A stretch of DNA of 36,135 nucleotides from a bacterium (GTDB lineage: Bacteria > Pseudomonadota > Gammaproteobacteria > Methylococcales > Methylomonadaceae), in NCBI GenBank assembly GCA_030591965.1, contig JAUVAA010000011.1:1-36135 (forward strand). Direction: 5' to 3'. Below are positions 1-24,672 of this stretch, piece by piece (position 1 is the stretch's first letter; the number at the start of each line of letters is the position of its first letter). The notes beneath the pieces are model-generated. The model ran no database searches, was not told the DNA's origin, and worked only from the letters and a program-made list of their open reading frames with translations. A program made the translations under genes and the position numbers.

Positions 1-1097
1 CGGTTAATAATGTTGTCTGGCATCGTCATACCCACTTTAATGCTACTCATTAAGCGCCCATTGTAGTAATAATCAACTATTTCAAACCAAGCATTTAAAT
101 GCTGCTTAATAGCGGTTTCATATTCAGATAAAGGCTTATCCTGAAGAATCGTATCGGCGAGCTTATTCGCGCTACCCATAGCAATCAGCATACCGCTAGA
201 AAAAACAGGGTCTACGAAGCCACCTGAGTCGCCCAACATCACCCAATTATCGCCACATAAACGCTCGGAACTAGACTGATAATTATTAAATCGAAGTGTC
301 GGCGTCACGCGCTGTGCATTTGGTGCTAACTTCCGTAAAACACTATCACTCTTTAATAAATTGTCATATTGCTCTTCGGGCGTATCCCCATGTTGTAGCG
401 CATAACTTTCTGGTACGACAAAGCCCAACGATACCTTACCTTGTAACGGTATACGCCAACACCAACCTTGATCTATTCGGTCATTATGCACATAACCCGA
501 ATCAACTAATTCAGTTTGATCTACATGCGCAAATAAAGCAACATCTTGCCTTGGCCCTTTTTGCATGGGAATATTCAGCAAACGCCCTACTAAATTGGCT
601 CGACCCGCCGCATCAACAATTAAATCAGGCTCGCTGTTATCCCAATATCCAGCCGCCTCTTGCAGCGTTTCACCATCTAACTTAATGTGCTCTGAATCAC
701 CCACCTGACTTAGCACTACTTTTCGATTAATCAGTTTTGCACCAGCGCGTAATGCCGCCTCTAGCAAAGTTGCATTAAACTTATCTCTAGGCACATTGTA
801 AGCATAAGAAGGTAAATCGCTTGGCGTCTCGTCAAACCGAAACTCAAAAACTTCATCCGCATTATAAGTAAAACAAGCGCCTGGTTTGTATACGCTGTAC
901 GCGGCAACCTCTTGTTCAACGCCAAGATCTTGTAGCATAGGAACAATCATCGGCACTAAAGACTCACCCACCAAAATCGGTGCTTGTTCCGGCGCTGCAA
1001 AAACAACAACATTACAGCCTTCTTTACATAAGCGAATCGCTAATGTACTTGAAGCAGGCCCAGCGCCTAAGATGGCAATATTTTTCTTTGCAGACAT
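1..1097 (-). CDS. FAD-dependent oxidoreductase of the flavin halogenase-like group, C-terminus cut by window edge
   Basis: The reading frame starts at the ATG at 1097 and is still open at base 1, so about 365 residues are visible. The N-terminus has a dinucleotide-binding motif, GAGPASSTLA (residues 11-20). A GES motif follows at residues 44-46. WCWRIP at 212-217 matches the WxWxIP signature of flavin-dependent halogenases, and the second FAD motif GDSGGFVDP lies near residue 290. K71 in YKPGACF is near the position of the catalytic lysine of true halogenases, but that alignment is by eye. Such proteins are common in aryl polyene, resorcinol and xanthomonadin-type clusters, where some halogenate and others act as plain monooxygenases. 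It diverges from the acyl ligase operon across a 271-base gap. Family is fairly sure; halogenase activity is inference. Confidence 0.8.
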   Translation of the reverse strand, partial: MSAKKNIAILGAGPASSTLAIRLCKEGCNVVVFAAPEQAPILVGESLVPMIVPMLQDLGVEQEVAAYSVYKPGACFTYNADEVFEFRFDETPSDLPSYAYNVPRDKFNATLLEAALRAGAKLINRKVVLSQVGDSEHIKLDGETLQEAAGYWDNSEPDLIVDAAGRANLVGRLLNIPMQKGPRQDVALFAHVDQTELVDSGYVHNDRIDQGWCWRIPLQGKVSLGFVVPESYALQHGDTPEEQYDNLLKSDSVLRKLAPNAQRVTPTLRFNNYQSSSERLCGDNWVMLGDSGGFVDPVFSSGMLIAMGSANKLADTILQDKPLSEYETAIKQHLNAWFEIVDYYYNGRLMSSIKVGMTMPDNIIN

Positions 1098-1221
1098 ATA
1101 AAATCAGTTCCTATCATTTATTTAAAATCTCAGATTCTATTTATTTAAGTACAATCAATGGCCAGAATAGGGGTAATGAAAAAACAGCTTCCTGGCATAT
1201 AATCAATCGATAACACATTAA

Positions 1222-1248
1222 TATAATGTTAGAAAAACAATGTTTTTC
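1222..1248 (+). promoter_or_regulatory. Possible -10 box and adjoining 17-bp palindrome in the divergent promoter gap
   Basis: A perfect TATAAT lies at 1222-1227. It has no convincing -35 box at the usual distance. Five bases further is GAAAAACA-A-TGTTTTTC (1232-1248), a palindrome with 8-base perfect arms around one central base. The site is in the gap between the halogenase-like gene and the acyl ligase operon. Its place just after a -10-like box would suit an operator, but this is inference. Confidence 0.3.
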
Positions 1249-1368
1249 CATGAAATCAACATTGGCAGGGGGCACTATAAACAAGCAGCAGCAAATTATA
1301 GACTGCCTCTCTATAAAAAAGAAGCTACATCACTTGAATAAGGCCGCAGCGAGCGGCTAAAATAGCTA

Positions 1369-3036
1369 TTGTCCTTCCACCTATTGATACCACTCAGCAT
1401 AACTTTGACCAGTAGAATTCCAGAGTACATTTCGCTATGCGACACACTCCAAAACACCTTAAATAGCGCTTTTTGTGTTTACTCAAAAGAGACTACTATC
1501 TGTCGCGCTGACTTATTAGCCCATGCAATCGCTTTAAGTGAAAATTTACCCGCCAAAAGCTATGCAATCAATCTTTGCCAAGATCGTTATCTTTTTATAG
1601 TCGCCTACCTAGCGGTCTGCCTACGCCAACAAACATCACTACTGCCCTCCAACCAAAGCGCTAAAACCTTAGCCGATTTAACAGCAAGTTACCCTAATAG
1701 TTACGCTCTAAGTGATGATAAACTTGGTTCAGATTTCTATCTCTCCTATGATTTATTAGAAAAAAGCACCCAGCCTTGCCCGCTAATTGATATTGATCGC
1801 CCCTTATCTATTTCTTTTACCTCAGGCAGTACAGGTAAACCCAAAGCGATTATAAAAACATGGCGCGAATTCCAAAAATCAGCCGAACTGGCATTGCAGC
1901 GATTTGAGCTACAAAACCAAGCAATAACTCTACTATCTACCGTTCCCATGCAACATATGTATGGTTTGGAAACCTCATTTTTCTGGGTGTTATTTTCTCG
2001 AATGAAATTGCATAATAGTCGGCCGTTTTACCCTGAAGATATACGCACTACACTCGCAGACCTGCCAGCAGAAAAAATTCTCGTTTCTACCCCGAGACAT
2101 TTAAAAATCTGCAGCCAAACACAAGGCCAGTGGAGCACTATAAAGTTCATTCTCTCTTCAACAGCACCTATGGATGGCACGCTTACACAACAAATAGAAA
2201 AAAACCTAAACGCACCGCTATTTGAATTATTTGGCAGTACCGAAACGCTCTCTTTTGCCTCGCGCCAAACGAGCAAGTCAGCGCATTGGCAACCTTATAC
2301 AAGCATCCAGCTAAAACAAAATAACGGCCAGTTTGTGTTGCAAGGCGGACATATTATTAAGCCTCTCATATTAGATGATACGTTTGAAATAGATGATAAA
2401 GGCGACTTCAACCTACTCGGCCGTTCTGCAGATTTAATTAAAATTGCCGGAAAAAGGGCGTCATTACATGAGCTAAACCAACAGTTAGCTAGCGTTTCCG
2501 GCATTGAAGATGGCGTGTTCTTTTTAAGCAAAAATGAACGACTTTCCGCTCTAGTCGTTAGCAAGCTACCCAAAAAAACGATTATTAAGCATTTACGCCT
2601 AGCAATAGATGAAGTCTTTTTGCCGCGCGCCCTCTATACAGTTTTTACCCTACCCCGTAATAATATGGGTAAACTACTCAAAACAGAACTCGAGCACTTG
2701 ATACAAACACAACAAATGCTAGCTACTAAACAATACTATTGCATCCCAGCGACACACCCCTGCTTTGCCGGTCATTTCCCAAATAACCCGATTGTGCCTG
2801 GCGTAGTACTGTTAACTTATGTACAACATCAGCTACTAGCCGCATTTCCCAATAACCGAATTTGCACCTTAACCCAAGCCAAATTTTTACATCCTTTACT
2901 TCCTGATCAAGAATTTAGCGTGTCCCTCACTCAATCATCAGCACACAACATCAAGTTCACCTGCATGCGTGGGTCAGAAACGCTAGTCACAGGCACCTTT
3001 ATTATTGCCGCCAAAGAGGGGCAATCTCATGACTAA
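1369..3036 (+). CDS. Acyl-CoA/acyl-ACP synthetase fused to an ApeI-type hotdog dehydratase
   Basis: Two domains in 555 residues. Residues about 1-450 form an AMP-binding ligase: P-loop TSGSTGKPK (151-159), ELFGSTET (286-293), GRSADLIKIAGKRASL (351-366) and catalytic lysine K435 in NNMGKLLK. Residues about 455-550 form a hotdog dehydratase with GHFPNNPIVPGV (468-479), H469 being the likely catalytic histidine. Aryl polyene clusters carry these two activities as ApeH and ApeI, sometimes fused. The likely role is loading a starter acid and dehydrating 3-hydroxyacyl-ACP. The start is uncertain: a stop lies two codons upstream, and the only early starts are TTG codons at 1369, 1384 and 1405, with no clear ribosome binding site. 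The TTG at 1384 gives an N-terminus IPLS that looks family-like. The stop overlaps the next gene by 8 bases. Confidence 0.85.
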   Translation: MSFHLLIPLSITLTSRIPEYISLCDTLQNTLNSAFCVYSKETTICRADLLAHAIALSENLPAKSYAINLCQDRYLFIVAYLAVCLRQQTSLLPSNQSAKTLADLTASYPNSYALSDDKLGSDFYLSYDLLEKSTQPCPLIDIDRPLSISFTSGSTGKPKAIIKTWREFQKSAELALQRFELQNQAITLLSTVPMQHMYGLETSFFWVLFSRMKLHNSRPFYPEDIRTTLADLPAEKILVSTPRHLKICSQTQGQWSTIKFILSSTAPMDGTLTQQIEKNLNAPLFELFGSTETLSFASRQTSKSAHWQPYTSIQLKQNNGQFVLQGGHIIKPLILDDTFEIDDKGDFNLLGRSADLIKIAGKRASLHELNQQLASVSGIEDGVFFLSKNERLSALVVSKLPKKTIIKHLRLAIDEVFLPRALYTVFTLPRNNMGKLLKTELEHLIQTQQMLATKQYYCIPATHPCFAGHFPNNPIVPGVVLLTYVQHQLLAAFPNNRICTLTQAKFLHPLLPDQEFSVSLTQSSAHNIKFTCMRGSETLVTGTFIIAAKEGQSHD

Positions 3037-3934
3037 GCACTGGCAAGACAATAAAGAACGCAGCACACCGCTCGCCTTAAAAGCGATACGTTGGGTTGCT
3101 TTACATCTAGGCCGCCCCGTTGCGCGCACCTTTCTTTACCCAATCACTGGCTATTATTTATTATTTGCCAAACCACAACGCCAAGCCTCACTACAGTATT
3201 TGACTCGCGTATTAAAGCGCAAAGCCACATGGCTAGATAGTGCCAAACATATACATGCGTTTGCCTCTACTATTCTCGATCGTGTTTATTTGCTAACAGG
3301 ACAATTTAACAAACTAGATATTACTTTCCCTTCGGAAAACGTCCCTCTAAGTTACAGCAAAGACGGTGTCGGCTGTCTGCTGCTCGGCAGTCATATCGGT
3401 AGTTTTGAAGTCTTACGTAGTTACGCCGTCAGTAACTACCCTTTACCCATTAAAATTTTGATGTACGAGCATCAAGCTCCGATGATGGTACAAGTACTTA
3501 ATGCGCTTAACGCTGATGTGGCCAATACACTAATTACCTTAGATGGATCACCTAGCGGTCTATTAAAAGTAAAAGAAGCCATAGATAGCGGCACAACCGT
3601 CGGTTTATTAGGCGATAGAATCCTAGGCGAAGGCAAAGACAAAACTGTTACCTGCACATTGCTAGGCGAACCCGTTAAAATGTCTACCGCCCCAATTCTT
3701 ATGGCCTCCGCATTAAAAGTGCCGCTAATTGTCTTTTTTGGTGTTTACTTAGGCGGTAATCGCTATAAAATCCACTTTGAATTACTCGCTGAAGAAGTTA
3801 TCTTGAACCGTAAAACTAGGCAACAAGATATACAAGCCTATACGCAAAAATACGTCGATATACTCGAAAAACAAATGCTAGAAACACCCTATAACTGGTT
3901 TAATTTTTATGATTATTGGCAAAAAGATGAATAA
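3029..3934 (+). CDS. LpxL/HtrB-type lysophospholipid acyltransferase
   Basis: Member of the lipid A biosynthesis acyltransferase family, which moves an acyl chain from acyl-ACP onto a lipid acceptor at the inner membrane. The catalytic HX4E motif is visible as HIGSFE, followed by GLLGDRILGEG, typical of the family. It has 301 residues, close to the family's usual length of about 300. The ATG at 3029 is chosen because AGAGGGG precedes it at good spacing; a TTG 24 bases upstream also opens the frame. It overlaps the ligase gene by 8 bases (ATGACTAA), which suggests translational coupling. In aryl polyene loci a similar enzyme (ApeK-type) is thought to attach the polyene to its lipid carrier. 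That role here is inferred from context. Confidence 0.85.
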   Translation: MTKHWQDNKERSTPLALKAIRWVALHLGRPVARTFLYPITGYYLLFAKPQRQASLQYLTRVLKRKATWLDSAKHIHAFASTILDRVYLLTGQFNKLDITFPSENVPLSYSKDGVGCLLLGSHIGSFEVLRSYAVSNYPLPIKILMYEHQAPMMVQVLNALNADVANTLITLDGSPSGLLKVKEAIDSGTTVGLLGDRILGEGKDKTVTCTLLGEPVKMSTAPILMASALKVPLIVFFGVYLGGNRYKIHFELLAEEVILNRKTRQQDIQAYTQKYVDILEKQMLETPYNWFNFYDYWQKDE

Positions 3935-4361
3935 TAAAATTCTGAACCAAACACAATTCGCACACCTAATTCCCCATGCGGGATCAATGATGCTAATTGA
4001 CCAAGTGGATTCATGGACTGATAAACAAATTCATTGTTCAACTCAATCGCATTTAGCCAGTGATAATCCATTACGCTTAAATAATAGCTTGTCAGCAATG
4101 CACCTTATCGAATATGGCGCGCAGTCTATGGCCATTCATGGCGGTTTATTATCAGGAAAATCTTCACCCGGATTTTTGGCGGCTGTGCGGGGTGCGCATT
4201 TTCATATTGATAACTTAGATACAATTACTAGCTCACTGCATATAGAAGCCAGCGCAGAACTAAAAATAGAGAATGGAGCTGTTTATTCATTCCGCATTAC
4301 CGATAGTCACAACATTTTGTTGCTTGATGCCCGAGCAACCGTTATTCATACCCAACCATGA
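3927..4361 (+). CDS. ApeP-like 3-hydroxyacyl-ACP dehydratase, hotdog fold
   Basis: Small single-domain protein of 144 residues from the ATG at 3927. The conserved IPHAGSMMLID stretch near the N-terminus is the hotdog dehydratase signature that holds the active-site histidine. A central helix-like stretch, LSAMHLIEYGAQSMAIHGG, matches the position of the hotdog helix. An ATG at 3909 would add six residues, but 3927 matches the usual family N-terminus and gives an 8-base overlap with the acyltransferase. It is the second dehydratase in the operon besides the ligase-fused domain; two distinct dehydratases working together are typical of aryl polyene synthesis. Its stop overlaps the following ketoreductase start as ATGA. 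Confidence 0.8.
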   Translation: MNNKILNQTQFAHLIPHAGSMMLIDQVDSWTDKQIHCSTQSHLASDNPLRLNNSLSAMHLIEYGAQSMAIHGGLLSGKSSPGFLAAVRGAHFHIDNLDTITSSLHIEASAELKIENGAVYSFRITDSHNILLLDARATVIHTQP

Positions 4362-5077
4362 AAAAAGCACTGATTACTGGCGGCAGCGGCGATATTGGCT
4401 CTGCTATTTGCACTCGCCTCGCGCAAGATAATATCCATGTGATTGTGCATAGCAATCATAACTTTGACAAAGCACAACAGATCGCTGATAGCATCAAACA
4501 ACAAGGTGGCTCAGCGGAAGCAATCGCCTTTGATGTCTGCGATGCAGAGGCAAGCGAATCTGCCGTCAAACAACTCTCTGAATCTGGATTGATTCAAATC
4601 ATTATCAATAATGCCGGCATCCATCGCGATGCGCCACTAGTCGGTATGAATAGAAAAAATTGGACGGATGTGATTGATGTCTCGTTGCATGGTTTTTACA
4701 ATGTCACCCAACCGTTATTAATGCCAATGATTCAAAGCCGTTGGGGGCGCATCATAAATATGTCTTCAGTGGCTGGCGTGATGGGAAATCGCGGGCAATG
4801 CAATTATTCCGCAGCAAAAGCCGCGTTAAACGGTGCGACAAAATCGCTCGCTCAAGAACTCGCCTCGCGCAAAATTACCGTGAATGCCATTGCTCCCGGC
4901 ATTATTCAAGGCAACATGACGGAAAATAGTTTTGATGCGCAGGCCATTAAAAATATCGTGCCTATGAAACGCGCGGGCAAACCCGAAGAAGTCGCTGCCC
5001 TTGCTGCCTTTTTATGTTCTGATGATGCTAGCTATATCTCAGGGCAAATCATTAATATTAATGGTGCGATGACTTAA
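4358..5077 (+). CDS. FabG/ApeQ-type 3-oxoacyl-ACP reductase
   Basis: Classical short-chain dehydrogenase/reductase, 239 residues. The NADP-binding GGSGDIGSAI is at residues 8-17, NNAG lies in the middle, and the catalytic serine and YSAAK tetrad occur as SSVAG and YSAAKAALNG. The C-terminus, YISGQIININGAMT, is typical of FabG. It reduces 3-ketoacyl-ACP to 3-hydroxyacyl-ACP in the cytoplasm, the step before the dehydratases encoded just upstream. It is the last gene of the overlapping plus-strand operon (ATGA with the dehydratase). The general FabG of fatty acid synthesis normally sits with fabD, acpP and fabF, so this looks like a dedicated copy. It converges on the FAD enzyme gene across a gap of about 35 bases. 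Confidence 0.9.
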   Translation: MKKALITGGSGDIGSAICTRLAQDNIHVIVHSNHNFDKAQQIADSIKQQGGSAEAIAFDVCDAEASESAVKQLSESGLIQIIINNAGIHRDAPLVGMNRKNWTDVIDVSLHGFYNVTQPLLMPMIQSRWGRIINMSSVAGVMGNRGQCNYSAAKAALNGATKSLAQELASRKITVNAIAPGIIQGNMTENSFDAQAIKNIVPMKRAGKPEEVAALAAFLCSDDASYISGQIININGAMT

Positions 5078-5090
5078 TAAGCAATTATTA
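5075..5090. terminator. Weak A/T hairpin in the convergent gap
   Basis: TAATAA and TTATTA can pair around a GCAA loop at 5075-5090, between the end of the ketoreductase and the convergent FAD enzyme. The stem is all A/T and no clear T-run follows, so any terminator role is weak. Confidence 0.2.
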
Positions 5091-5112
5091 GACATAAAGG
5101 TAAGCTATAACT

Positions 5113-6705
5113 CTAACGCAATAACTCAAAAACATCCTTTAAATACCTTAGTCGACTCTCCGGAACTTCAGGCGCATAAGCCTCTAGTTCTGGGAACCCT
5201 ACACATGCTTCTGCAACCACCTCAGCAGCCAACTCTCTAATCAAGGCAATATTCTGAATCAACTGTTGCTGTAATTCGGTATCATTCTGCTCTTTAAGCA
5301 AATCTTTATTTAATTGCTGCAAAAATCCAATCTTGCTGTAGTTGATAAAAATATCGCTCTTCTCAATACTTGATAAATCTATTTCTGCCCACTGCCGAAA
5401 AAAGCCCTGCATCTGCAAATTAATCTGATAAATTTGCTGTAAAGAAGTCGCAGCAATTTCCATAAATGCTAAATCACAAAACTTATCTCTAAAAAATAAT
5501 AAGGCCGCACCACTCCAATAGAGCGTGTAATCCCAAATGATTTTTATGCTCATCACTTTGGCATTCGCCATAATCGGATACTGATCTTCATAGACGGGGC
5601 AAAATGCTAAAAATAAAGTACGAAATAACTTTTCATATTGTTCTGTTCTAGCAGCAATATCCTCACCCGTATATTGCTTAACAATCAAGTCACCAATAAA
5701 GCCATTATTAAGGGCAATAAAATCGCTGCCTGGTGAATAAAAGGGATCAAGAAAAACACCGGCATCGCCTGTAATTGCCCAGCCGTCAGCCGAATACATT
5801 TTTTTGCAATTATGCGAATAATGTTTCAGCGTTAGAAAGTCCTGAAACTTATCTATGTGCTGCTCAATAATCTGTGCGCATTGAGGTTCATATTTTTTCA
5901 ACCACACTTTTGCACGTTCAAAGGTATTAATTTCTGCATATGGATGAAGTTTGGCATCGGCAACAATACCTATACTGGTTGCGCCTGATGATAAGGGAAT
6001 TAACCAAACCCAATAGCCTTTACCCAATAAATGATTGGTACTGAGTCGCCGCGGCGCATTGACTCGAGCTTGCCAGTCTGGTTTCTCACTCCAATTATCA
6101 ATACTGATTTCATGATTGATACGAAACCAAGAGGCGTTAATATCGTGATAGGCGGGTTTTGCTAATTTTAATTTACGCTTCAATAAGCTCATTCGGCCAG
6201 TTGAATCAACCAACCAGTTGGCTTGCACAACGCTTTCTTGGCCGTTATGTACCATAACGGCTTGATGTTGATTTTTACCAAGCGCAATATCTTTAATTTT
6301 ACAGTTATCTTGAAAATCTATGCCTAACTGCAGACATCGTTCAGCTAAAGCATTTTCAAAACGCCCTCGATCTAATTGATAGCTTTTAGCTGCTGGAAAA
6401 TCATTTGGCCCTAGCTCTATACGCCGGCTTATATCTAAATTATCACCCTTAGTATAAAAAAATCGTAGACCTAATTTAGGCAGCTCATTATCTAGCTGTG
6501 GCTTTAAGCCTAAGATATTTTCAAAATAGTGACTGGCAATTTCAACTGAGGATTCACCTACTTTATGTGCTGCCTCGGGCACTGGGTGCATTGATTTCTC
6601 TGCTATTAAAATACGCAGACTGGCAGCTTTCCGTTTGAGCTGTATGGCTAAGGTTAGTCCAGACAGACCGCCCCCCATAATGAGCACATCATACTGTTGG
6701 TGCAT
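5113..6705 (-). CDS. Flavin-dependent halogenase-like FAD monooxygenase
   Basis: 530 residues, the full length of the tryptophan halogenase family (about 500-540). GGGLSGLTLA (11-20) binds FAD and VGES lies at 49-52. K77 in PKLGLRFF sits very near the catalytic lysine position (79) of PrnA/RebH-type halogenases. WVWLIP at 232-237 is the exact WxWxIP signature, and GDAGVFLDPFYSPGSDF (313-329) is the second FAD motif. It is the last gene of the minus-strand operon, 83 bases after the desaturase-like gene. Halogenation or hydroxylation of an aryl or polyene product is plausible. The substrate is unknown, and many family members in similar clusters have not been shown to halogenate. It needs a flavin reductase, and none is visible here. 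Confidence 0.75.
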   Translation of the reverse strand: MHQQYDVLIMGGGLSGLTLAIQLKRKAASLRILIAEKSMHPVPEAAHKVGESSVEIASHYFENILGLKPQLDNELPKLGLRFFYTKGDNLDISRRIELGPNDFPAAKSYQLDRGRFENALAERCLQLGIDFQDNCKIKDIALGKNQHQAVMVHNGQESVVQANWLVDSTGRMSLLKRKLKLAKPAYHDINASWFRINHEISIDNWSEKPDWQARVNAPRRLSTNHLLGKGYWVWLIPLSSGATSIGIVADAKLHPYAEINTFERAKVWLKKYEPQCAQIIEQHIDKFQDFLTLKHYSHNCKKMYSADGWAITGDAGVFLDPFYSPGSDFIALNNGFIGDLIVKQYTGEDIAARTEQYEKLFRTLFLAFCPVYEDQYPIMANAKVMSIKIIWDYTLYWSGAALLFFRDKFCDLAFMEIAATSLQQIYQINLQMQGFFRQWAEIDLSSIEKSDIFINYSKIGFLQQLNKDLLKEQNDTELQQQLIQNIALIRELAAEVVAEACVGFPELEAYAPEVPESRLRYLKDVFELLR

Positions 6706-6760
6706 TAAAATTTTCCTACTTTAAAGTACCTGAGTACGATTATTTAAAAAAAATAGTACG

Positions 6761-6784
6761 TTAGCGGACTGAAGCCTGCCCTAC
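6761..6784. repeat. Half copy of the GTAGGGCGGACT palindromic repeat
   Basis: TTAGCGGACTGAAGCCTGCC followed by CTAC resembles the right arm of the complete palindrome at 12917-12970, with a few mismatches. It lies 4 bases beyond the stop codon of the desaturase-like gene. Only one arm is clearly kept. Confidence 0.5.
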
Positions 6785-6788
6785 TTGG

Positions 6789-8294
6789 CTATTGAGCACA
6801 CAAATCCCACAGTTCTTTTTGCTGCCTCAAACCTAAAACTTTTTGTGCAGCTTGCACGCCGGAATAGCTAACTCCGTACACGCCGCCACCAGGTGCCGTC
6901 CAATGCCCAGCGAAGTAAAGTCCTTCAATGGGGGCTTTATTCGCAATCCGATTTGCCCCCACTTGTTTAGGACTAACATCCCAACCATAAGCAGCTCCTT
7001 TATGATTTAGGGTATAACGCTGCAGTGTTGCTGGAGAACCCGCCTCAATAAATAAGGTATGAGCTTTTAATCCTACAATCTTTTTGTCAGCAAAATCTAG
7101 CATTTTTTCGATATATTGCGCTTTTTCTGGCGACCAATGGTTCGTCTGATCAAAATTCGCTAGGATTGTTAACATCACTAAATGTTCGCCTTTCGGCGCT
7201 AAACTATCATCGACTAAAGTAGGAATAGTAATACTCATCCACGATAAGTCGCCCTGAACGGAACAGTTAAAATTAGCCTCATGATCCAGCTCATCATAAT
7301 AAAATGCTTCATGATGTGCGCCTGCCTGCACAACATCCAAGTCCGTCGCTATATAGACCACAAAAATAGACATCGATGGCTGCATATTTTGTAAACGAGA
7401 TAAATACCGTTTGGGAAAATAGCTTTCTCCAACCAACTGTTTCACCGTCAACAGCATATCGGCATTAGAAATAACAGTATTTGCTGCGATGAATTCGCCG
7501 GAAGATAAGAGCACGCCTTGTACCTGATTATCGCTAACGGTAATGCGTTCAACATGACATTTAAAACGAATGTCTCCACCCGCTAGCTTTAAGCCAGCGA
7601 CTAAAGCATTCGCTAAGCCTTGAAAGCCACCTTTACAATAATACGCACCATCCTCAACATACCCCATCAGCATACTAGCCCAATAAACAAAAGATACTTG
7701 TTCAGGCGGTAAACCTAAGTACGGCCATAATGCGGCGAAAACACTCTGTAATTGTGGGTCGCGAATATAGTCCCCCCAAACATCGGCCAAGGTACTACGC
7801 CGATATTTAAACAATAAATTCAACTCAGAATTCATCACCGCTAAATCGTCTGACGCTATCACATCATCAGCCTTGGCAACCTGCTCTGCTAATTGCAAAC
7901 AAAGCATTAATAAATTTTGTAATCCTTGGCGCTCGTGCGGAAACAGCTTACCAAGTTGCTCGACAAGCGCATCAATAGATGTAGGTAGTTCAACCGACAC
8001 TGCCCCCACTGAAACAAAGGCAAATGGATTCACCTCAATAAATTCTAGCTGTTCATAACTATCCACAGCCTGAAGTACTTTACGTATTATTTGTCCACCG
8101 GCAAAACCCTGCATACCGCAACCGCTAGTCAGATGAACACCGGCATCAAATGTGTATTTCTTACGCTTGAACCCATGCGCGTAACCACCTGCACGATCAT
8201 GCTGCTCCAACACTAAAACTTGTCGCCCCGCTTTTGCCAATAAAGCCGCAGCCGTTAAACCTCCGATACCACTACCGATAACGACAACATTCAT
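6789..8294 (-). CDS. Phytoene desaturase/carotenoid isomerase-like FAD oxidoreductase
   Basis: 501 residues, the usual size of the CrtI/CrtISO/retinol saturase superfamily. The N-terminal motif VVIGSGIGGLTAAALLAKAG is followed by EQHDRAGGYAHGF, the signature of this group. The C-terminus has GLYFAGHWTAPGGGVYGVSYSG, the second FAD-contacting region. Members desaturate or isomerise conjugated polyenes. No carotenoid genes (crtB, crtE) are visible, so a substrate made by the neighbouring acyl-chain machinery is more likely than phytoene. A degenerate palindromic repeat (8323-8358) lies between it and the upstream secreted-protein gene. Confidence 0.8.
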   Translation of the reverse strand: MNVVVIGSGIGGLTAAALLAKAGRQVLVLEQHDRAGGYAHGFKRKKYTFDAGVHLTSGCGMQGFAGGQIIRKVLQAVDSYEQLEFIEVNPFAFVSVGAVSVELPTSIDALVEQLGKLFPHERQGLQNLLMLCLQLAEQVAKADDVIASDDLAVMNSELNLLFKYRRSTLADVWGDYIRDPQLQSVFAALWPYLGLPPEQVSFVYWASMLMGYVEDGAYYCKGGFQGLANALVAGLKLAGGDIRFKCHVERITVSDNQVQGVLLSSGEFIAANTVISNADMLLTVKQLVGESYFPKRYLSRLQNMQPSMSIFVVYIATDLDVVQAGAHHEAFYYDELDHEANFNCSVQGDLSWMSITIPTLVDDSLAPKGEHLVMLTILANFDQTNHWSPEKAQYIEKMLDFADKKIVGLKAHTLFIEAGSPATLQRYTLNHKGAAYGWDVSPKQVGANRIANKAPIEGLYFAGHWTAPGGGVYGVSYSGVQAAQKVLGLRQQKELWDLCAQ

Positions 8295-8322
8295 TTTTTT
8301 AATTTCCAGTAGCTTAAAAACT

Positions 8323-8358
8323 GTAGGGCTGACATTAGCGAACTAAAGTCCGCCCTAC
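8323..8358. repeat. Degenerate copy of the GTAGGGCGGACT palindromic repeat
   Basis: GTAGGGCTGACATTAGCGAA runs into CTAAAGTCCGCCCTAC, giving two imperfect arms of the same palindrome seen at 12917-12970 with a shorter centre. It lies in the 71-base gap between two minus-strand genes of the biosynthetic operon. Confidence 0.65.
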
Positions 8359-8365
8359 GTGCTTT

Positions 8366-8797
8366 TTAAGGTTTGCTAATTTTAAAGCTACCCATAGACC
8401 AGCCTAGGTCATAGCCTGTTCCTTTTCCTGATAATGTTACAGTTCGTGCCCCTCTTGGTATCCAGCGCCCTTCTACTGACTTACCAAACCCTGCATGCCC
8501 ACCTAGCTCAAAGGCCCCACCATAAATATCATCAATACTTTGTACGCCACGAATTTTGCCTTTCCCATCAGTAATTTCTGAAGCACCAAACGTAAAACCT
8601 CCACCTTTTAAGCTCAAACTCACATTGGCTTTTTTGCCGCTAGGACAAGTCACAACACCTGAGCCTTTATAGGTTTTATAAAAAGCTGACCAGCCTTTCA
8701 TAGTATATTTTAAATCACACTCTTCCGCTTCTGCAGCGAAAGAAAAAGACATTAAGAAAAGTGAACTTGCTAGCAAGCCTAAAGCTGATTTTTTCAT
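8366..8797 (-). CDS. Small secreted protein of unknown function
   Basis: I do not recognise this 143-residue protein. It starts MKKSALGLLASSLFLMSFSF with the basic-then-hydrophobic pattern of a Sec signal peptide, probably cut after an AxA-type site near residue 23-25. The mature part of about 120 residues has two cysteines (near residues 27 and 50) that could form a periplasmic disulphide. It is glycine-rich, with alternating polar and hydrophobic strands (VSLSLKGGGFTFG, TVTLSGKGTGYDLGW), suggesting a small beta-rich domain. It sits inside the minus-strand biosynthetic operon, 88 bases after the DUF374 acyltransferase. A role in carrying or placing the lipid product is conceivable, like the LolA-type proteins of aryl polyene loci. 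No LolA similarity is visible. Confidence 0.7.
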   Translation of the reverse strand: MKKSALGLLASSLFLMSFSFAAEAEECDLKYTMKGWSAFYKTYKGSGVVTCPSGKKANVSLSLKGGGFTFGASEITDGKGKIRGVQSIDDIYGGAFELGGHAGFGKSVEGRWIPRGARTVTLSGKGTGYDLGWSMGSFKISKP

Positions 8798-8885
8798 TAT
8801 ATATTCCTTTTATATTCATCTAAAAATTACGATACAAAAACAAAGTATCCCTCAAAAAAGTCACATACGCACTGCAACTCCCACA

Positions 8886-9581
8886 TTACTCATAAATACT
8901 AAAACTCGATACCAATCTCTCAGCCTGCTCGCTCAAGCCATTAAGTTCATCTGTTAGCTGCTGCTGACACACAGAAATCTGCTCAGGAGAAACGCGTTTT
9001 GCTACTACAATCGGCTCGCCTACCACTATCTCCACCCTACTATAAGGCAAGGGCAAAAAGAAACTATCCCAGCTTTTCAAATGAATTTTTCGGCTACAGG
9101 CATTAGCTATCGGAATAAGCGGCGCCCCACTCAGTTGCGCCAGCGTTACCACACCGACCTTAGCTTCTCGGTCTGGACCTAAAGGGCCATCTACTGCTGT
9201 GCCTACACTGCATTTATCTTTGCTGATTGCCTGATAAATATCACGCATTGCAAGCGCCCCGGTACGATGTTCCGAACCACGAATAACGCCCACGCCCAAA
9301 TTAGTTAAAACTGCGTCGCCTATATCACCATCTTTAGAAGGGCTGACTAGAACACTGGTTTTAACGCCTTGGTCGCGTAGGCCGAGCAAAAAATCTATTG
9401 AAAATGTCATTTGCTGATGCCAATAACAAGGTAACATCGGTTGCTGATCGACTATAAACACCTGCAAGTTCTCTGTGCCGGTAATATTAATTGTGCAGGT
9501 CTTATGTAGCAATTTAATATAACCGGTCAAAATCGCAGGTGCGAGTTTTTGCTTAAGTACCCTATTTAGCCAATACTTCAA
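8886..9581 (-). CDS. DUF374/LPLAT-family lysophospholipid acyltransferase
   Basis: 231 residues, as expected for the DUF374 family. Motifs in order: YWHQQMTF (the catalytic histidine region), SPSKDGDIGDAVLTNLG, VIRGSEHRTGALAMRDI, and DGPLGPDREAKVG, the typical DGPxGP block. Start choice: the frame opens with TTG at 9581, and AAGGAA lies 7 bases upstream within the end of the preceding gene, so TTG is accepted. It follows the fatty acyl-AMP ligase gene by only 4 bases. It probably transfers an acyl chain to a lipid at the inner membrane. With the LpxL-type enzyme it gives the locus two different acyltransferases, which suggests a membrane-anchored ester product. Confidence 0.8.
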   Translation of the reverse strand: MKYWLNRVLKQKLAPAILTGYIKLLHKTCTINITGTENLQVFIVDQQPMLPCYWHQQMTFSIDFLLGLRDQGVKTSVLVSPSKDGDIGDAVLTNLGVGVIRGSEHRTGALAMRDIYQAISKDKCSVGTAVDGPLGPDREAKVGVVTLAQLSGAPLIPIANACSRKIHLKSWDSFFLPLPYSRVEIVVGEPIVVAKRVSPEQISVCQQQLTDELNGLSEQAERLVSSFSIYE

Positions 9582-9585
9582 AAGT

Positions 9586-11577
9586 CTATTCCTTGTTTTG
9601 AGAATTTTGCTCCAGAAATGCTGCTAACTGGGCAATACTTGGGTAATCAAACAAATCCGTTAAATCAACCTGATCAGGAAAAAGTTGATCTAAGCGCTCA
9701 TGAATTTGTGTCAAAGAAAGTGAACTAATACCAATTTCAAATAAATCATCTTCGGGCGCAATCGTACGCTCAGGAATCACTTCCTTACAAATCTGCATTA
9801 ATTGCTGCTCTATAGAACCTTCTGCACTCGTGTCACTTGCTGCGTCTGCGCTAGATAACTGCTTAATTTTTGCCAACGTATCAGCATATTCCCCCGCAAT
9901 ATAATGGTTGGAAAGAATAAAGCGCTGCACCTTACCACTAGTGGTTTTAGGGTAAGCTGAAACGGGAATCACTTCAGCCACTTCGATACCCGCATCTTTA
10001 GCCAGCACTCCACGTATAGCATTAGCAATCGGAATAAAATCACTAAGCTCACCCTTATAAGTAACAAAAATAGCTAAAGCCTCACCGTTATTGCCTGGAA
10101 CCGTACAAGCCGCTGCTTTTTGCTGACCGATTTTAGGCAAGGCCTCGCATAATTGCTCTAAATCATGAGCATGATAATTCTGTCCATTAACAATAATTAA
10201 GTCTTTAAAGCGACCCGTTAATACCAACTGTTTTTGATAGATAAAACCTATATCTCCTGTATCTAACCAGCCTTCTTGGTTAATGGTCTCAGCATTTAAT
10301 TGCGCATTATCATAATAACCTTTAGTCACATTCTCGCCACGAATCAAAACATGCCCTAAGGTTTGCTCAGGCAATGTTTGCCCAGTCTCATCAGCAACAA
10401 CCAACTCAGTTTCGGGCACTGCCATTCCTAGCAAAACCAACTCCAAACTATCGGCATCGTCCACAGTCACTAAAGCAATTTTATCTCCTAATTGTAGCTG
10501 TTGACGGCCAACAAAAACAGATTGCACTGTTGCCGTAGGCTCAGTAAATGCAGCCGCTAAAGAAGCTTCAGCCAAACCATAAACAGGAAAAATAACGGTA
10601 TCGCGAAAACCAAAAGGCTTTAAAGTTTGGTTGAACTCTGCACATAAAGTCGCGGATATTTGCTCCGCACCATTAAAAATCAAGCGTAATGACGACAAAT
10701 CCAAATGCGCCTGCTTTTCTGCTTTAAAATATTTTAATATGTGTTGATAACCAAAATTAGGCGACGCGGAAACTGTTGCCCGTTTCTCACTGATTTTATC
10801 CAGCCATAAATTAGGTCGGCGCACAAACAGCTCGGGTGACATCAAATAAACATCGGTATTCAATACTAAAGGTGATAAATGAAAACCAATAATACCCATA
10901 TCATGCGTTAATGGCATCCAGCTTAAGCTGACATCATCCTGAGTAGCTGCACTACCGATTAAAATGGAACGGATATTAGTCATTAAATTATGATGGCTTA
11001 ACACCACACCTTTTGGCTCGCCCGTTGAGCCTGATGAGAACTGAATAAAAGCCGTGTCTTGCGGGAGAATATCAGCTGGTGCAGCTTGATTTTGATCCAC
11101 TTGAATTTGCTCAGAAATCAACGTTTGCTTTTCTAGCAAAGGCTTCATTCCAGCTAACTGATGCTCATCAGCATACTGCAATAAGTGCTGCAATGAACTC
11201 TCTGAAGCCCAAATAAACGGCTTATGTAATTTCTGCGTTACCGATAAAACACGTTTATACGCGGCATTCTGGCTAACGGCACTCAAAGGTACGGCAATAA
11301 TTCCGCCCAATAAAGCCGCCCAGAAGACATCGACAAACTGCTCATTATTATCCGCCAGCAAGATCAATTCATCCCCTTGCTGCATGCCTGATTGTTGTAA
11401 TTGATATAACAAACATAAAGCGCGCTGGTACAACTGTGCATAACTAACCGTCACTTCATCATTTTTACCTTTTATATAGGTAATGCTTTTATCACCCTTA
11501 GCAGCGTGCTGTAAGGCTTCGGTTAGCGTGAGTGGAGAAAATGTTTCGCTCATGTCGTGTTTATCTGTAAGTTGCAT
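9586..11577 (-). CDS. Fatty acyl-AMP ligase with C-terminal acyl carrier domain
   Basis: 663 residues. Residues 1 to about 570 are an adenylating enzyme: SSGSTGEPKG P-loop (181-190), WMPLTHDMGIIG (220-231, typical of FadD32-like fatty acyl-AMP ligases), YGLAEA and K549 in YPKTTSGKVQR. After a linker rich in Ala, Ser and Asp comes a carrier domain (about 585-660). Its phosphopantetheine serine is probably S619 in IGISSLSL; the usual Asp before that Ser is Ser here. The enzyme would activate a free acid as acyl-AMP and load it on its own carrier arm. The gene overlaps the P450 gene by 17 bases. A second ATG at 11553 is an equally possible start, since neither has a clear ribosome binding site. 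Confidence 0.88.
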   Translation of the reverse strand: MQLTDKHDMSETFSPLTLTEALQHAAKGDKSITYIKGKNDEVTVSYAQLYQRALCLLYQLQQSGMQQGDELILLADNNEQFVDVFWAALLGGIIAVPLSAVSQNAAYKRVLSVTQKLHKPFIWASESSLQHLLQYADEHQLAGMKPLLEKQTLISEQIQVDQNQAAPADILPQDTAFIQFSSGSTGEPKGVVLSHHNLMTNIRSILIGSAATQDDVSLSWMPLTHDMGIIGFHLSPLVLNTDVYLMSPELFVRRPNLWLDKISEKRATVSASPNFGYQHILKYFKAEKQAHLDLSSLRLIFNGAEQISATLCAEFNQTLKPFGFRDTVIFPVYGLAEASLAAAFTEPTATVQSVFVGRQQLQLGDKIALVTVDDADSLELVLLGMAVPETELVVADETGQTLPEQTLGHVLIRGENVTKGYYDNAQLNAETINQEGWLDTGDIGFIYQKQLVLTGRFKDLIIVNGQNYHAHDLEQLCEALPKIGQQKAAACTVPGNNGEALAIFVTYKGELSDFIPIANAIRGVLAKDAGIEVAEVIPVSAYPKTTSGKVQRFILSNHYIAGEYADTLAKIKQLSSADAASDTSAEGSIEQQLMQICKEVIPERTIAPEDDLFEIGISSLSLTQIHERLDQLFPDQVDLTDLFDYPSIAQLAAFLEQNSQNKE

Positions 11578-12871
11578 GTAAAAAAATGTCTTGTTTCGGT
11601 CTTAAATTGACCAAGGGCTCTAATTCAACCCTCTGCCCTGGAACCAGTTCAAAATGTATTTTTTGAATAATACGGCTGATATGCACCGCCATTTCTTGAA
11701 TAGCCATACTATCGCCTATACAACGTCTAGGGCCAATGGCAAAAGGCAAATACGCGCCGATATGATGGTTGGCTTTATTTTCTGGGCTAAAACGTTGCGG
11801 ATCAAAAACTTCAGGGTCAGCCCAAACAGCTGTATTTCGATGCATTAAATAAGGCGGAATCAAAATATCCGTTCCCGCCGGAATATCAATGCCATTATAG
11901 TGATCATCAGCCAAAGCTTGACGAGTCAGTACCCAAACGGGCGGATATAAACGCATAGACTCATCTAATACTTGCTCGGTAAATTTTAGTTGCCCAATAT
12001 CGACCATACTTGGCTCAGATGTCAGCGGCATATGCTGCTGACTTTCTGCTAAAACTTGCTGCTCAATATCGGCATGTTGCGCAAGCAAATACCAAGTCCA
12101 ATTTAGAACACTCGCGGTGGTTTCATGCCCCGCAATAATCATAGTTAGAATTTCATCAATTTGTAGTTTCTCTGGCATGGCATCACCGCTACGTTTCTCC
12201 GTTGCGTTCATAACCATGGTTAACAAATCAAAGGGCTGGCGATTTTCTGCGCGGCGGCGTTGCATCATATCGCTAACCAGATGCGTCAACTGACGAAAAC
12301 GCCGTGCAAATAATAAATCTCGCGCGGAATCATCCGTCACCATAAGAAACGGATTTTCTCCGGTTTCAGCAATAATTCGATCTAAATCTTCACTAAACAA
12401 GGCATGTAAAATAAAATCTAGTGCAGTCTGACTCATAGACTCAGTCAAATTTATCGGCTTTCCCGCCTTAATATCATCATCCCAGCTAGCTATTAACTTA
12501 TCGGCACAATGCGTCATTAAGGGCAATTGCTGCGTCAGTAACTTATTACTAAAGAGCGGCTGCATCATTTTACGTTGCCGCTTCCACAGATCACCTTCAC
12601 TAACAATAATACCGCGCCCCAATAAGACATTAATTTGCTTAATGCCAACGCCTTTTTTGTAATTTTTATAATTTGTGACCAAAATATGCTTGGCCATATC
12701 TGGATCACAAATGTTATAAACCCAACTATTCTGATCAGGAAATTTAGCTTTAAAAACATTCCCTTGGGTCGCCACCAAATCCGTGAGCTGTGGCAGAACC
12801 TGCTCAAGTTGATGGTAATCAATAATAATACCTTCTCCAGGAGGCAGGCTTAATGGTTTTGAATCAGGCAT
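11561..12871 (-). CDS. Soluble cytochrome P450
   Basis: 436 residues without an N-terminal membrane anchor. The I-helix oxygen-binding motif is AGHETTAS (247-254), the K-helix ExxR is ESMR (304-307), and the heme-binding loop FAIGPRRCIG places the cysteine ligand at C384. WKRQRKMMQPLF near residue 97 matches the C-helix WxxxR. First gene of the minus-strand operon and overlapping the fatty acyl-AMP ligase-carrier gene, so its substrate may be the carrier-bound acyl chain, as in other P450s that work on tethered substrates. That pairing is inference. No dedicated ferredoxin or reductase lies beside it; fdxA in this window is far away and of a different type. Confidence 0.92.
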   Translation of the reverse strand: MPDSKPLSLPPGEGIIIDYHQLEQVLPQLTDLVATQGNVFKAKFPDQNSWVYNICDPDMAKHILVTNYKNYKKGVGIKQINVLLGRGIIVSEGDLWKRQRKMMQPLFSNKLLTQQLPLMTHCADKLIASWDDDIKAGKPINLTESMSQTALDFILHALFSEDLDRIIAETGENPFLMVTDDSARDLLFARRFRQLTHLVSDMMQRRRAENRQPFDLLTMVMNATEKRSGDAMPEKLQIDEILTMIIAGHETTASVLNWTWYLLAQHADIEQQVLAESQQHMPLTSEPSMVDIGQLKFTEQVLDESMRLYPPVWVLTRQALADDHYNGIDIPAGTDILIPPYLMHRNTAVWADPEVFDPQRFSPENKANHHIGAYLPFAIGPRRCIGDSMAIQEMAVHISRIIQKIHFELVPGQRVELEPLVNLRPKQDIFLHATYR

Positions 12872-13110: not shown

Positions 13111-13581
13111 ATGAAATTATTAATACCCCAAGCACAGATCTTTCTTCTGCTTGCCAGCCTGCTAATCCTTAGCAGTTGCGCACAGATACCAACAGGAGAA
13201 TTTGTACCTTCCTATCAAGCAGAAACAGGCAAGCCTTATGCTGACGTACTAGCTGAACTAGAAATTGCTATTTCCGAACATAATTTCAGAATTACCGGAC
13301 ACAGTCGCGTGGGTAAAGTAATTCGTGATCGCGGTACAAAAGATTTCCCTGAATACGATACCTTACAGTTTTGCAATCTCACCCATGCAAAAACATTATT
13401 ACTTATGTCGCCTCACGCGGTACGCTACATGCCATGTAATATAGTGACTTATCAATTTCAAGGTAAAACTATAGTTCGCACGCATTTAATGCCGACTAAT
13501 ACTGACAACCCTGATCTAAACCGCTTTTCGACTAAAATGAATATCATGTTGAAAGCGATTGTTGATTTTGCCGTAGAATAA
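13111..13581 (+). CDS. DUF302-domain lipoprotein
   Basis: 156 residues. A lipoprotein signal peptide ends in the lipobox LSSC, so the mature protein would begin with a lipidated cysteine near residue 23. The rest matches the DUF302 pattern: a repeated-turn N-terminal part, then LQFCNLTHAKTLLLMSPHA and a PCNIVTYQFQGKTIV strand pair. The molecular role of DUF302 proteins is not settled. The gene stands alone, with a candidate promoter just upstream and a repeat-containing gap before lgt. Its closeness to lgt, which lipidates such proteins, may be coincidence. Confidence 0.75.
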   Translation: MKLLIPQAQIFLLLASLLILSSCAQIPTGEFVPSYQAETGKPYADVLAELEIAISEHNFRITGHSRVGKVIRDRGTKDFPEYDTLQFCNLTHAKTLLLMSPHAVRYMPCNIVTYQFQGKTIVRTHLMPTNTDNPDLNRFSTKMNIMLKAIVDFAVE

Positions 13582-13598
13582 AATAAAGACAAGATTTT

Positions 13599-13628
13599 AA
13601 CCACAGAGAGCACAGAGGGCGCAGAGAA
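13599..13628 (+). repeat. Short CACAGAG-type tandem motif
   Basis: AACCACAGAGAGCACAGAGG followed by GCGCAGAGAA holds three spaced copies of a CACAGAG-like word. Similar sequences (ACCACAGAG...CACAGAG) occur as dispersed intergenic repeats in many bacterial genomes. It lies between the DUF302 gene and lgt; no function can be read from it. Confidence 0.45.
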
Positions 13629-13694
13629 AAATACTTCCCGCCGTTTTTTCTTTTGCACTTAAATGCAAGTTAACCCAACCTTCGACATACCAAA

Positions 13695-14471
13695 ATGAAC
13701 CACTTTATCTGGGATTTTGATCCTGTTTTAGCTAGCTTTCAGTCTATCCGTATTCATTGGTACGGCCTGATGTTTGCCTTAGCGCTACTTAGTAACTATT
13801 TACTAATGCACTGGATTTACTGGCGTGAACTCGGTAGCACCGAAGATGTCGACCGCCTGCTTTGGTATTGCATCGGCGGCACAGTGCTTGGCGCTAGGTT
13901 AGGCCATGTTATTTTTTACAATCCAGCTTATTATTTAGACAATCCAGGCAAAATTTTTGCCATTTGGGAGGGAGGGCTCGCTAGTCATGGCGGAGTGCTC
14001 GGCGTTTTAGTTGCCCTGTATATTTACCAACGCAAGGCCAGCTTTAATTACTTGTGGATTTTAGATAGAGCGGCCATTGCTGCTTCTTTTAGCGGCAGTT
14101 TGATTCGTGTTGGTAATTTTCTAAATTCAGAAATTGCAGGCACGGCAAGCGACATGCCTTGGGCCGTTATTTTCACGCGTATTGACGAAATCCCAAGACA
14201 CCCAGTACAACTCTATGAAGCGATTAGTTATGCCGGCATTTCTTTTTTTCTTTTCTATTGTTATAAGCGCAGCAAATCATTTGATTTGAATGGCCGCTTA
14301 TTTGCTTGGTTCCTGATTCTTATCTTTAGCGCGCGCTTTATTCTGGAGTTTTTTAAAATCAACCTTAACAGCGACAGCAATAATTTTTGGCTAGACACAG
14401 GGCAACTACTGAGCATCCCTTTTGTCTTAATCGGCTGCTATTTTCTCTACCGGTCACGCAAAAGTTTATGA
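13695..14471 (+). CDS. lgt: Prolipoprotein diacylglyceryl transferase
   Basis: Inner-membrane enzyme that transfers diacylglycerol from phosphatidylglycerol to the lipobox cysteine of prolipoproteins. 258 residues with about seven hydrophobic segments. Family motifs in order: SIRIHWYGLMF, GARLGHVIFYNP, GGLASHGGVLG, the Lgt signature RVGNFLNSEIAG (its Arg and Asn are key residues) and RHPVQLYEA. Lgt is often paired with thyA in gammaproteobacteria; here it overlaps tsaC as ATGA instead. Confidence 0.96.
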   Translation: MNHFIWDFDPVLASFQSIRIHWYGLMFALALLSNYLLMHWIYWRELGSTEDVDRLLWYCIGGTVLGARLGHVIFYNPAYYLDNPGKIFAIWEGGLASHGGVLGVLVALYIYQRKASFNYLWILDRAAIAASFSGSLIRVGNFLNSEIAGTASDMPWAVIFTRIDEIPRHPVQLYEAISYAGISFFLFYCYKRSKSFDLNGRLFAWFLILIFSARFILEFFKINLNSDSNNFWLDTGQLLSIPFVLIGCYFLYRSRKSL

Positions 14472-23297: not shown

Positions 23298-23300
23298 AAT

Positions 23301-24617: not shown

Positions 24618-24672
24618 CCTTACCTCCACAACTTAGAAATTCCATCTCCTTAATATCTCATTATTATTTTTA

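Follow-up and report, generated by a model that had tools for sequence, protein, structure and literature searches.

The window analyzed here, 36,135 nucleotides in length, is the entire contig C219 of a metagenome-assembled genome (MAG; 2.93 Mb, 223 contigs, ~91% complete) whose host is called a Methyloprofundus-like methanotroph. The first 12,871 nucleotides hold eleven genes (Table 1), which were identified from the list of open reading frames (ORFs) and from profile searches with Pfam and NCBIfam; gene starts were taken as the first start codon of each ORF. Here, we describe an aryl polyene (APE) cluster at this locus, predicted to make a membrane-bound pigment, and a neighboring cassette of three genes encoding a cytochrome P450, a fatty acyl-AMP ligase (FAAL) fused to an acyl carrier protein (ACP), and a DUF374 acyltransferase. 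An earlier note on this DNA had listed ten of the genes and proposed that they act together in one pathway. All ten are present as open frames at the place given, and profile matches support most of the identities. The match of the fused ligase's dehydratase half to ApeI (20.1 bits) does not reach the cut-off of 28.5, the second dehydratase (3909..4361) has no match in Pfam or PDB searches, and the eleventh gene, at 8366-8797, had been overlooked.

Table 1. Genes at the left end of the window and in the adjoining flank
Gene or predicted product	Coordinates	Strand	Support and remarks
hal1, FAD halogenase-like	3..1097	-	Trp_halogenase 1e-28; cut by contig end, continues on C96
AMP ligase-ApeI-like dehydratase fusion, predicted to activate the APE starter	1369..3036	+	AMP-binding 5e-20
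Lip_A_acyltrans (LpxL-like) acyltransferase, APE cluster	3005..3934	+	Lip_A_acyltrans 4e-8
Probable second (ApeP-like) hotdog dehydratase	3909..4361	+	position and motif only
FabG-type ketoreductase	4358..5077	+	short-chain dehydrogenase 5e-53; FabG 352 bits; flexirubin FlxB 287 bits, below cut-off
hal2, second FAD halogenase/monooxygenase-like, APE-associated	5113..6705	-	Trp_halogenase 7e-11
CrtI/CrtISO-like FAD enzyme, APE-associated	6789..8294	-	Amino_oxidase 6e-30
Small secreted all-beta protein (sm143), family-less	8366..8797	-	usually adjoins CrtI in relatives read
DUF374 (LpxJ-like) acyltransferase, cassette	8886..9581	-	DUF374 (PF04028) 3e-16, 59 bits versus cut-off 26.8
FAAL-ACP didomain, cassette	9586..11577	-	FAAL model 1e-118; PP-binding 4e-11, over cut-off
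Cytochrome P450, cassette	11561..12871	-	P450 8e-76; overlaps FAAL gene
DUF302 protein, lgt, sua5-like gene	13111..15031	+	site flanking cassette in genus; lgt and sua5 named from sequence

The comparisons below draw on 18 Methyloprofundus genomes (the genus sample), 201 genomes of the family, and 369 genomes of the class Gammaproteobacteria. Genomes, loci, and contigs are denoted by G-, L-, and C-numbers, respectively, and C96 and C108 are contigs of the MAG to which the window belongs. The genus and family tallies of the cassette, the CrtI homologue, and the ligase were made by hand and are uncorrected for kinship.

An exact 127-base overlap joins the start of the window to C96, and another of the same length joins C96 to C108. 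Leftward from hal1, C96 encodes a 90-residue carrier protein, a protein denoted C-like (its G009 homologue gives a weak condensation-domain match), an FAD oxidoreductase, an aryl/acyl ligase, and a TauE-like protein, followed by a lysophospholipid acyltransferase (LPLAT), a family 2 glycosyltransferase (GT2), an ACP, and COG4648-like, LolA-like, and MMPL proteins. After the MMPL gene, C108 continues with a ketosynthase (KS), a ketosynthase fragment resembling a chain-length factor (CLF), and further FAD enzymes. The partner of the KS is a Ketoacyl-synt_2 protein that matches 7f28 and 6qsp_B, both of which we take to be ApeC proteins. A ligase, an ACP, and a ketoreductase are present as well, the ACP being recognized by its 94% identity to a gene of L051 that was itself named from sequence. 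The MMPL protein (a homologue of that in L051), the GT2, and the LPLAT score over their Pfam cut-offs; the LolA-like protein reaches only E 0.15 and the COG4648-like protein has no Pfam match, both being named by sequence and gene order. No PDB match was obtained for the C-like protein or the FAD protein of C96.

Because the joined contigs supply a ketosynthase, a chain-length factor, an ACP, and an exporter, the stretch running from C108 through C96 to window positions 1-8797 is, as judged from its predicted gene content, a largely complete APE cluster. These findings bear out the APE-type logic that had been proposed for the window alone. Leftward extension, advised in the earlier note as a search for ketosynthases, ACPs, and an exporter, turned up all three; the KS lies on C108 and the ACP on C96, so flanks lacking ketosynthase or carrier genes, which that note had held as grounds for rejection, are not what is seen. 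The second dehydratase, named as such from a hotdog-like motif and from its position, is kept beside FabG in relatives, and the fused ligase and dehydratase are separate genes in L032, from a symbiont of Bathymodiolus platifrons.

The clusters for APEEc of Escherichia coli and for the xanthomonadin type of Lysobacter and Xanthomonas share with this one the KS with its CLF-like partner, ACP, ligase, ketoreductase, and probable dehydratases, together with the LPLAT, GT2, MMPL/RND exporter, LolA-like, and COG4648 genes. The E. coli gene list likewise matches the KS, CLF-like, ACP, ligase, ketoreductase, LPLAT, GT2, exporter, LolA-like, and COG4648 components (PMC8253772). Unlike the known clusters, this one additionally holds the CrtI-like enzyme, hal2, and the block of aryl ligase, FAD, C-like, carrier, and hal1 genes; no methyltransferase, thioesterase, or third KS was recognized in the joined stretch. 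APE clusters are already known in methanotrophs (PMC11964084), and some APE loci carry halogenase genes (PMC3691225). The gene order of C96 agrees with that of G010, of G004 (where the TauE gene is missing), and of G009 as far as read. No KS was found in G010 within 20 kb beyond the MMPL gene, and therefore the order of the APE genes is not fixed throughout. The aryl ligase-FAD-C-like-carrier-hal1 block was read in G000, G004, G009, and G010, and the C-like gene occurs in 5 of the 18 genus genomes. This block, at 1-4570 of C96 (L124; from the end of hal1 to the aryl ligase), possibly provides a carrier-bound, halogenated aryl unit.

The best solved matches of hal1 are ChlB4, halogenase 8zop, 5buk, and PltA; ChlB4 and PltA presumably act on carrier-bound aryl groups. 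The WxWxIP motif and the lysine of KxG are kept in all aligned members of hal2 (13/13) and hal1 (4/4). These motifs are not diagnostic for halogenation, and the description of either enzyme as a proven halogenase was rejected; both are predicted to be halogenase-like. Within the family, hal2 was found in 16 of the 201 genomes. Eleven loci with a close hal2 relative come from 10 methanotroph/Methylococcaceae assemblies; six of the loci are labeled Methyloprofundus and two are labeled mussel symbionts. The CrtI-like protein scores 186 bits with the CrtI-family model and 193 bits with the carotenoid-isomerase model, both below the curated cut-offs. Its homologue is present in 39 of the 44 family genomes with the APE ligase versus 28 of the 157 without it. 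Ligase and CrtI genes share a contig in 14 genomes and lie within 10 kb of one another in 12 of these, the exceptions being G009, where 390 kb separates them, and G168 (33 kb).

The neighborhoods of these genes indicate the system to which they belong. In L032, one run contains CrtI, hal2, an FAD enzyme, FabG, a dehydratase, an LpxL-like enzyme, a dehydratase, the ligase, TauE, LPLAT, GT2, and ACP, and no P450 or FAAL was found within the 14.5 kb read. G010 carries the CrtI/hal2/APE set on C2 and the P450 and FAAL on C1; likewise, L115 and L116 (the latter being the G010 locus) hold CrtI and hal2 with APE genes and have no P450 or FAAL beside them. Since relatives hold both genes with APE genes and apart from the P450 and FAAL, the CrtI-like enzyme and hal2 are assigned by gene context to the APE cluster. 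Their membership in the FAAL/P450 half was rejected on the same grounds, the cassette not adjoining them in those relatives. The small secreted protein encoded at 8366-8797 belongs to no Pfam family. Its structural model (pLDDT 77) gave weak fold matches to the Rhodococcus Vap proteins and Brucella COG5400 at E 0.003-0.03, and the fold search returned nothing at E 0.001 or better (best 0.003). The gene is present as two adjacent copies in G010 (L116) and in L032.

The three genes of the cassette are closely packed, the P450 and FAAL genes overlapping by 17 bases and the FAAL and DUF374 genes being spaced by 4 bases. The best model for the FAAL is NF006624 (397 bits, below its cut-off of 600), its best solved matches are FAALs, and the top solved match of the didomain is McyG chain 4r0m. 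The solved P450s nearest in sequence are LUTEIN DEFICIENT 5, CYP3A4, and carotene epsilon-monooxygenase, with CYP4B1 and the BM3 fatty acid hydroxylases lower; the heme cysteine and the ExxR motif are kept in 19 of 19 aligned members. In the DUF374 protein, H55 and D131 are invariant in 23/23. LpxJ, a DUF374 enzyme, uses H61/D132 in Rickettsia (PMC6148475). H55 and D131 fit this His/Asp dyad by motif and spacing. The cassette enzyme thus resembles LpxJ, a late acyltransferase of lipid A, in its DUF374 domain and in its invariant His/Asp at matching motifs, but it differs in sitting in a P450/FAAL operon; its substrate and acceptor are predictions. Similarly, the FAAL-ACP didomains of polyketide synthase (PKS) and nonribosomal peptide synthetase (NRPS) lipids, of the McyG type, have the same domain order, but in the cassette the didomain is partnered by a P450 and an acyltransferase of lipid type.

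An orthologue of the FAAL (E 1e-140 or better) was found in 23 of the 369 class genomes, the window genome included. Within 6 kb of the orthologue in the other 22 genomes we found a P450 (17), a DUF374 protein (18) or an LpxL-type enzyme instead (3), and a phosphopantetheinyl transferase (PPTase, 9), using queries that include family members from the same loci; with the window proteins alone as queries on called ORFs, the counts were 15/22 for the P450 and 16/22 for DUF374. A lipid-type acyltransferase adjoins the orthologue in 21 of the 22; at the remaining locus, in G489, the contig ends just past the FAAL and the other side runs 8 kb without one. Taken over all 30 loci (22 class, 7 order/family-level, and 1 plasmid, with the order-level orthologues G048 and G059 read only as small loci), the totals were 21 P450, 22 DUF374, 5 LpxL-type, and 15 PPTase. 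The partner genes were not found above the same score beside any of 15 nonorthologous FAALs of the order (0/15); these controls are a subset of 21 weaker FAAL matches, some of the stretches extend little to one side of the gene, and control L140 has an LpxL-like match below the 55-bit cut. The gene content, the linkage, the conservation, and the LpxJ-type residues are direct observations.

A PKS or PKS/NRPS context is called universal for typical bacterial FAALs, and a few are fused to lysophospholipid acyltransferases or stand among other enzymes (PMC8460268). In the window, the neighbor of the FAAL is an APE cluster resembling a type II PKS. Elsewhere, 21 of the 22 class-sample loci gave no match to a KS, and thus the cassette is unusual among FAALs. 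The described association of FAALs with PKS and NRPS genes would suit a small secreted natural product, such as an oxidized fatty acid or amide, in place of a membrane lipid. The lack of a KS match at those 21 loci speaks against such a product, although no good probe for NRPS condensation genes was applied, and no recurrent exporter was recognized among the gene families shared by at least three loci; we regard this explanation as unlikely. Still more improbable is a biotin route in which cleavage of acyl-ACP by the P450 would give pimeloyl-ACP. The placement of a P450 next to a carrier protein for fatty acyl chains is reminiscent of BioI, but a lipid-type acyltransferase stands beside the FAAL at 21 of the 22 class loci, and 10 of the 18 congeners manage without the cassette, although no search for biotin genes was made.

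A further lipid context for the cassette is predicted from the neighborhood on Diaphorobacter plasmid pDCB2 (L108), where PPTase, P450, and FAAL-ACP genes lie beside genes for an ACP, a further FAAL, and a serine palmitoyltransferase that exceeds its curated cut-off. The set is thus directly beside genes of the kind that make up proteobacterial sphingolipid clusters (serine palmitoyltransferase, ACP, acyl synthetase), but no gene at 1-12871 of the window was identified as a serine palmitoyltransferase in the profile searches. The plasmid annotation calls the FAAL-ACP a "non-ribosomal peptide synthetase". pDCB2 is a conjugative IncP plasmid, and its sphingolipid-like cluster includes LptF/LptG-like permeases and a phosphocholine cytidylyltransferase. 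A plasmid search with the P450 returned 32 records; among the 20 matches listed, all but one are below 35% identity. Loci L044, L045, and L046 of the same order as the window combine a FAAL-ACP, a PPTase, and an LpxL-type acyltransferase, have no P450, and lie beside a protein of 761-765 residues, which in L044 contains a hydrolase domain and, at a score under the cut-off, matches an acyltransferase.

Within the genus, the cassette was found in 8 of the 18 genomes. The DUF302 and lgt genes lie beside the P450 in seven of these carriers, and in the eighth the contig ends there. The distance from the cassette to the APE genes differs among the eight: the two touch in three genomes, lie ~10 kb from one another in one, are apart in two, and cannot be judged in two (G006, with 3.4 kb read past the cassette, and G014, at a contig end). 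In G010, the APE genes are on another contig and the first 85 kb of the cassette contig contains no APE core gene. The 89-kb cassette contig of G005 has no APE core gene near the cassette; the sole APE-associated gene there is the small secreted one, beside DUF374. The APE ligase is present in all eight cassette-bearing genomes and in 8 of the 10 that are cassette-free. At the class level, 21 of the 22 cassettes, that of G575 included, showed no APE core gene within the 10-19 kb of surrounding sequence read at each locus; G379 and G489 show only a 23-24% AMP-ligase match. Because both gene sets also occur apart, we favor, at a probability of roughly 55%, the reading that two systems stand side by side in the window: the APE cluster and a separate FAAL/P450/DUF374 cassette that would operate by the mechanism proposed below. 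The interpretation given in the earlier note is supported in part. A single ten-gene pathway, as proposed there, is not upheld, since the CrtI-like enzyme and hal2 follow the APE genes and the cassette lacks APE genes at the class loci just described and is separated from them in G005 and G010. A functional link or cooperation between the cassette and the APE cluster is possible.

Several observations weigh against two separate systems and are consistent with one integrated hybrid pathway in which the P450-oxidized acyl chain of the cassette is incorporated into the APE lipid. The earlier note had named a constant separation of the two halves in related genomes as grounds for rejecting their cooperation, and no such constancy is seen. 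The cassette touches the APE genes in G000, G008, and G012, and the G001 contig that carries the cassette also carries the APE core (FAD, CLF, KS, and MMPL to TauE), which begins ~10 kb past DUF374. In the window strain itself, the cassette and the sm143-CrtI-hal2 genes have the same orientation, are separated by gaps of 71-88 bases, and could be cotranscribed; the count of promoter-like sites was 31 versus 32.4 expected by chance, and that of terminator-like sites was 18 versus 13.2 (standard deviation 4.0). The separation in G005 may be secondary, because the APE-associated small secreted gene is still beside the cassette. A second adjacency is found in a distant lineage, in G480 of another family, where the P450 and FAAL genes lie head to head with the run DUF374-GT2-LpxL-dehydratase-KS. 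Genes for LPLAT, ACP, ligase, hal2 (40%), CLF, KS, FabG, PPTase, and a COG4648-like protein are within ~20 kb, and the DUF374 and GT2 genes overlap by 4 bases if GT2 starts at GTG. Also counting against the favored reading, 5 of the 22 FAAL orthologues have no P450 neighbor, and the structure prediction for DUF374 is unusable (pLDDT 32). The presence of the APE ligase in all of the cassette-bearing genus genomes also favors the hybrid pathway, but the ligase persists in most of the cassette-free ones, cassette and APE genes are apart in G005 and G010, and 21 of the 22 class cassettes lack APE core genes in the sequence read around them, including that of G575, which belongs to the genus of G480. 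We consider one integrated pathway possible but doubtful.

At the G001 locus (L043, C4, ~107-124 kb), the APE core is near the cassette and the ligase and CrtI-hal2 genes are on other contigs, so that the APE cluster is split. In G008, CrtI and hal2 are on other contigs, with hal2 beside a helicase gene and mobA/fdhD genes; similar genes adjoin the cassette in G010 and, in part, in G001 and G006. Because the neighbors of hal2 in G008 resemble those of the cassette in these genomes, parts of both systems seem to have been reshuffled around one chromosomal region. There are in-frame stops in the P450 and hal2 genes of G008.

The LpxJ-type His/Asp residues would suit a true LpxJ that places an oxidized secondary acyl chain on lipid A, and LpxL-type enzymes take the place of DUF374 in G042, G053, G056, G241, and G379. 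The window MAG, moreover, shows no other DUF374 protein and one Lip_A_acyltrans gene, that of the APE cluster, but this absence is read from a genome that is ~91% complete. The cassette is missing from 10 of the 18 genus genomes, and a second LpxL-like gene occurs in carriers G001, G005, G008, and G010, though it was not found in G000, G006, G012, and G014. Modification of lipid A is therefore a tentative proposal that we judge to be somewhat improbable. No Lip_A_acyltrans gene was found in 3 of the 18 genus genomes.

For the two systems in the favored reading, we infer every catalytic step, together with the substrates and the acceptor. In the APE cluster, an aryl acid would be activated and loaded onto the ACP, and the chain would be extended by the KS/CLF pair, FabG, and the two dehydratases. 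Tailoring may follow by the halogenase-like FAD enzymes hal1 and hal2 and by the CrtI-like oxidoreductase, and the product would be joined to a lipid by the LPLAT and LpxL-type acyltransferases with GT2 and exported via the MMPL and LolA-like proteins. In the cassette, the FAAL would activate a free fatty acid and load it onto its own ACP domain, the P450 would oxidize the carrier-bound chain, probably by hydroxylation, and the DUF374/LpxJ-type enzyme would transfer the oxidized chain to a lipid of the membrane, possibly the APE lipid or lipid A. This sequence of loading, oxidation, and transfer is proposed because the FAAL-ACP pairs with a lipid-type acyltransferase, usually with a P450, and often with a PPTase.

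In searches of open-license papers, we found no description of a P450-FAAL-DUF374 cassette and no paper that mentions aryl polyenes together with both a fatty acyl-AMP ligase and a cytochrome P450, a combination that we regard as unusual, in agreement with the earlier remark that this mixture is not one known from a described cluster. A broader proposal, which we advance as speculation with the odds against it, is that PPTase, P450, FAAL-ACP, and an LpxJ-type enzyme constitute a mobile, previously undescribed cassette that puts P450-oxidized acyl chains on outer-membrane lipids. Pathways of three kinds (lipid A-type, sphingolipid, and APE lipid) would each have acquired it separately, and here it would yield an APE lipid with an oxidized acyl chain.

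Elsewhere in the window, at 21939-25959 on the minus strand, three consecutive similar genes, encoding proteins of 428-452 residues, resemble tandem paralogues and are presumably of the HDOD type.

The comparison reported here illustrates how two neighboring systems can be fused when a cluster is read from raw sequence, and how comparison among relatives then separates them. If the proposed function of the cassette is correct, a good number of Gammaproteobacteria (23 of the 369 sampled) would oxidize acyl chains and install them on membrane lipids by an unrecognized route whose genes are currently annotated piecemeal. For methanotrophs, including the symbionts of mussels, the finding would then offer a testable origin of unusual pigments and membrane lipids.

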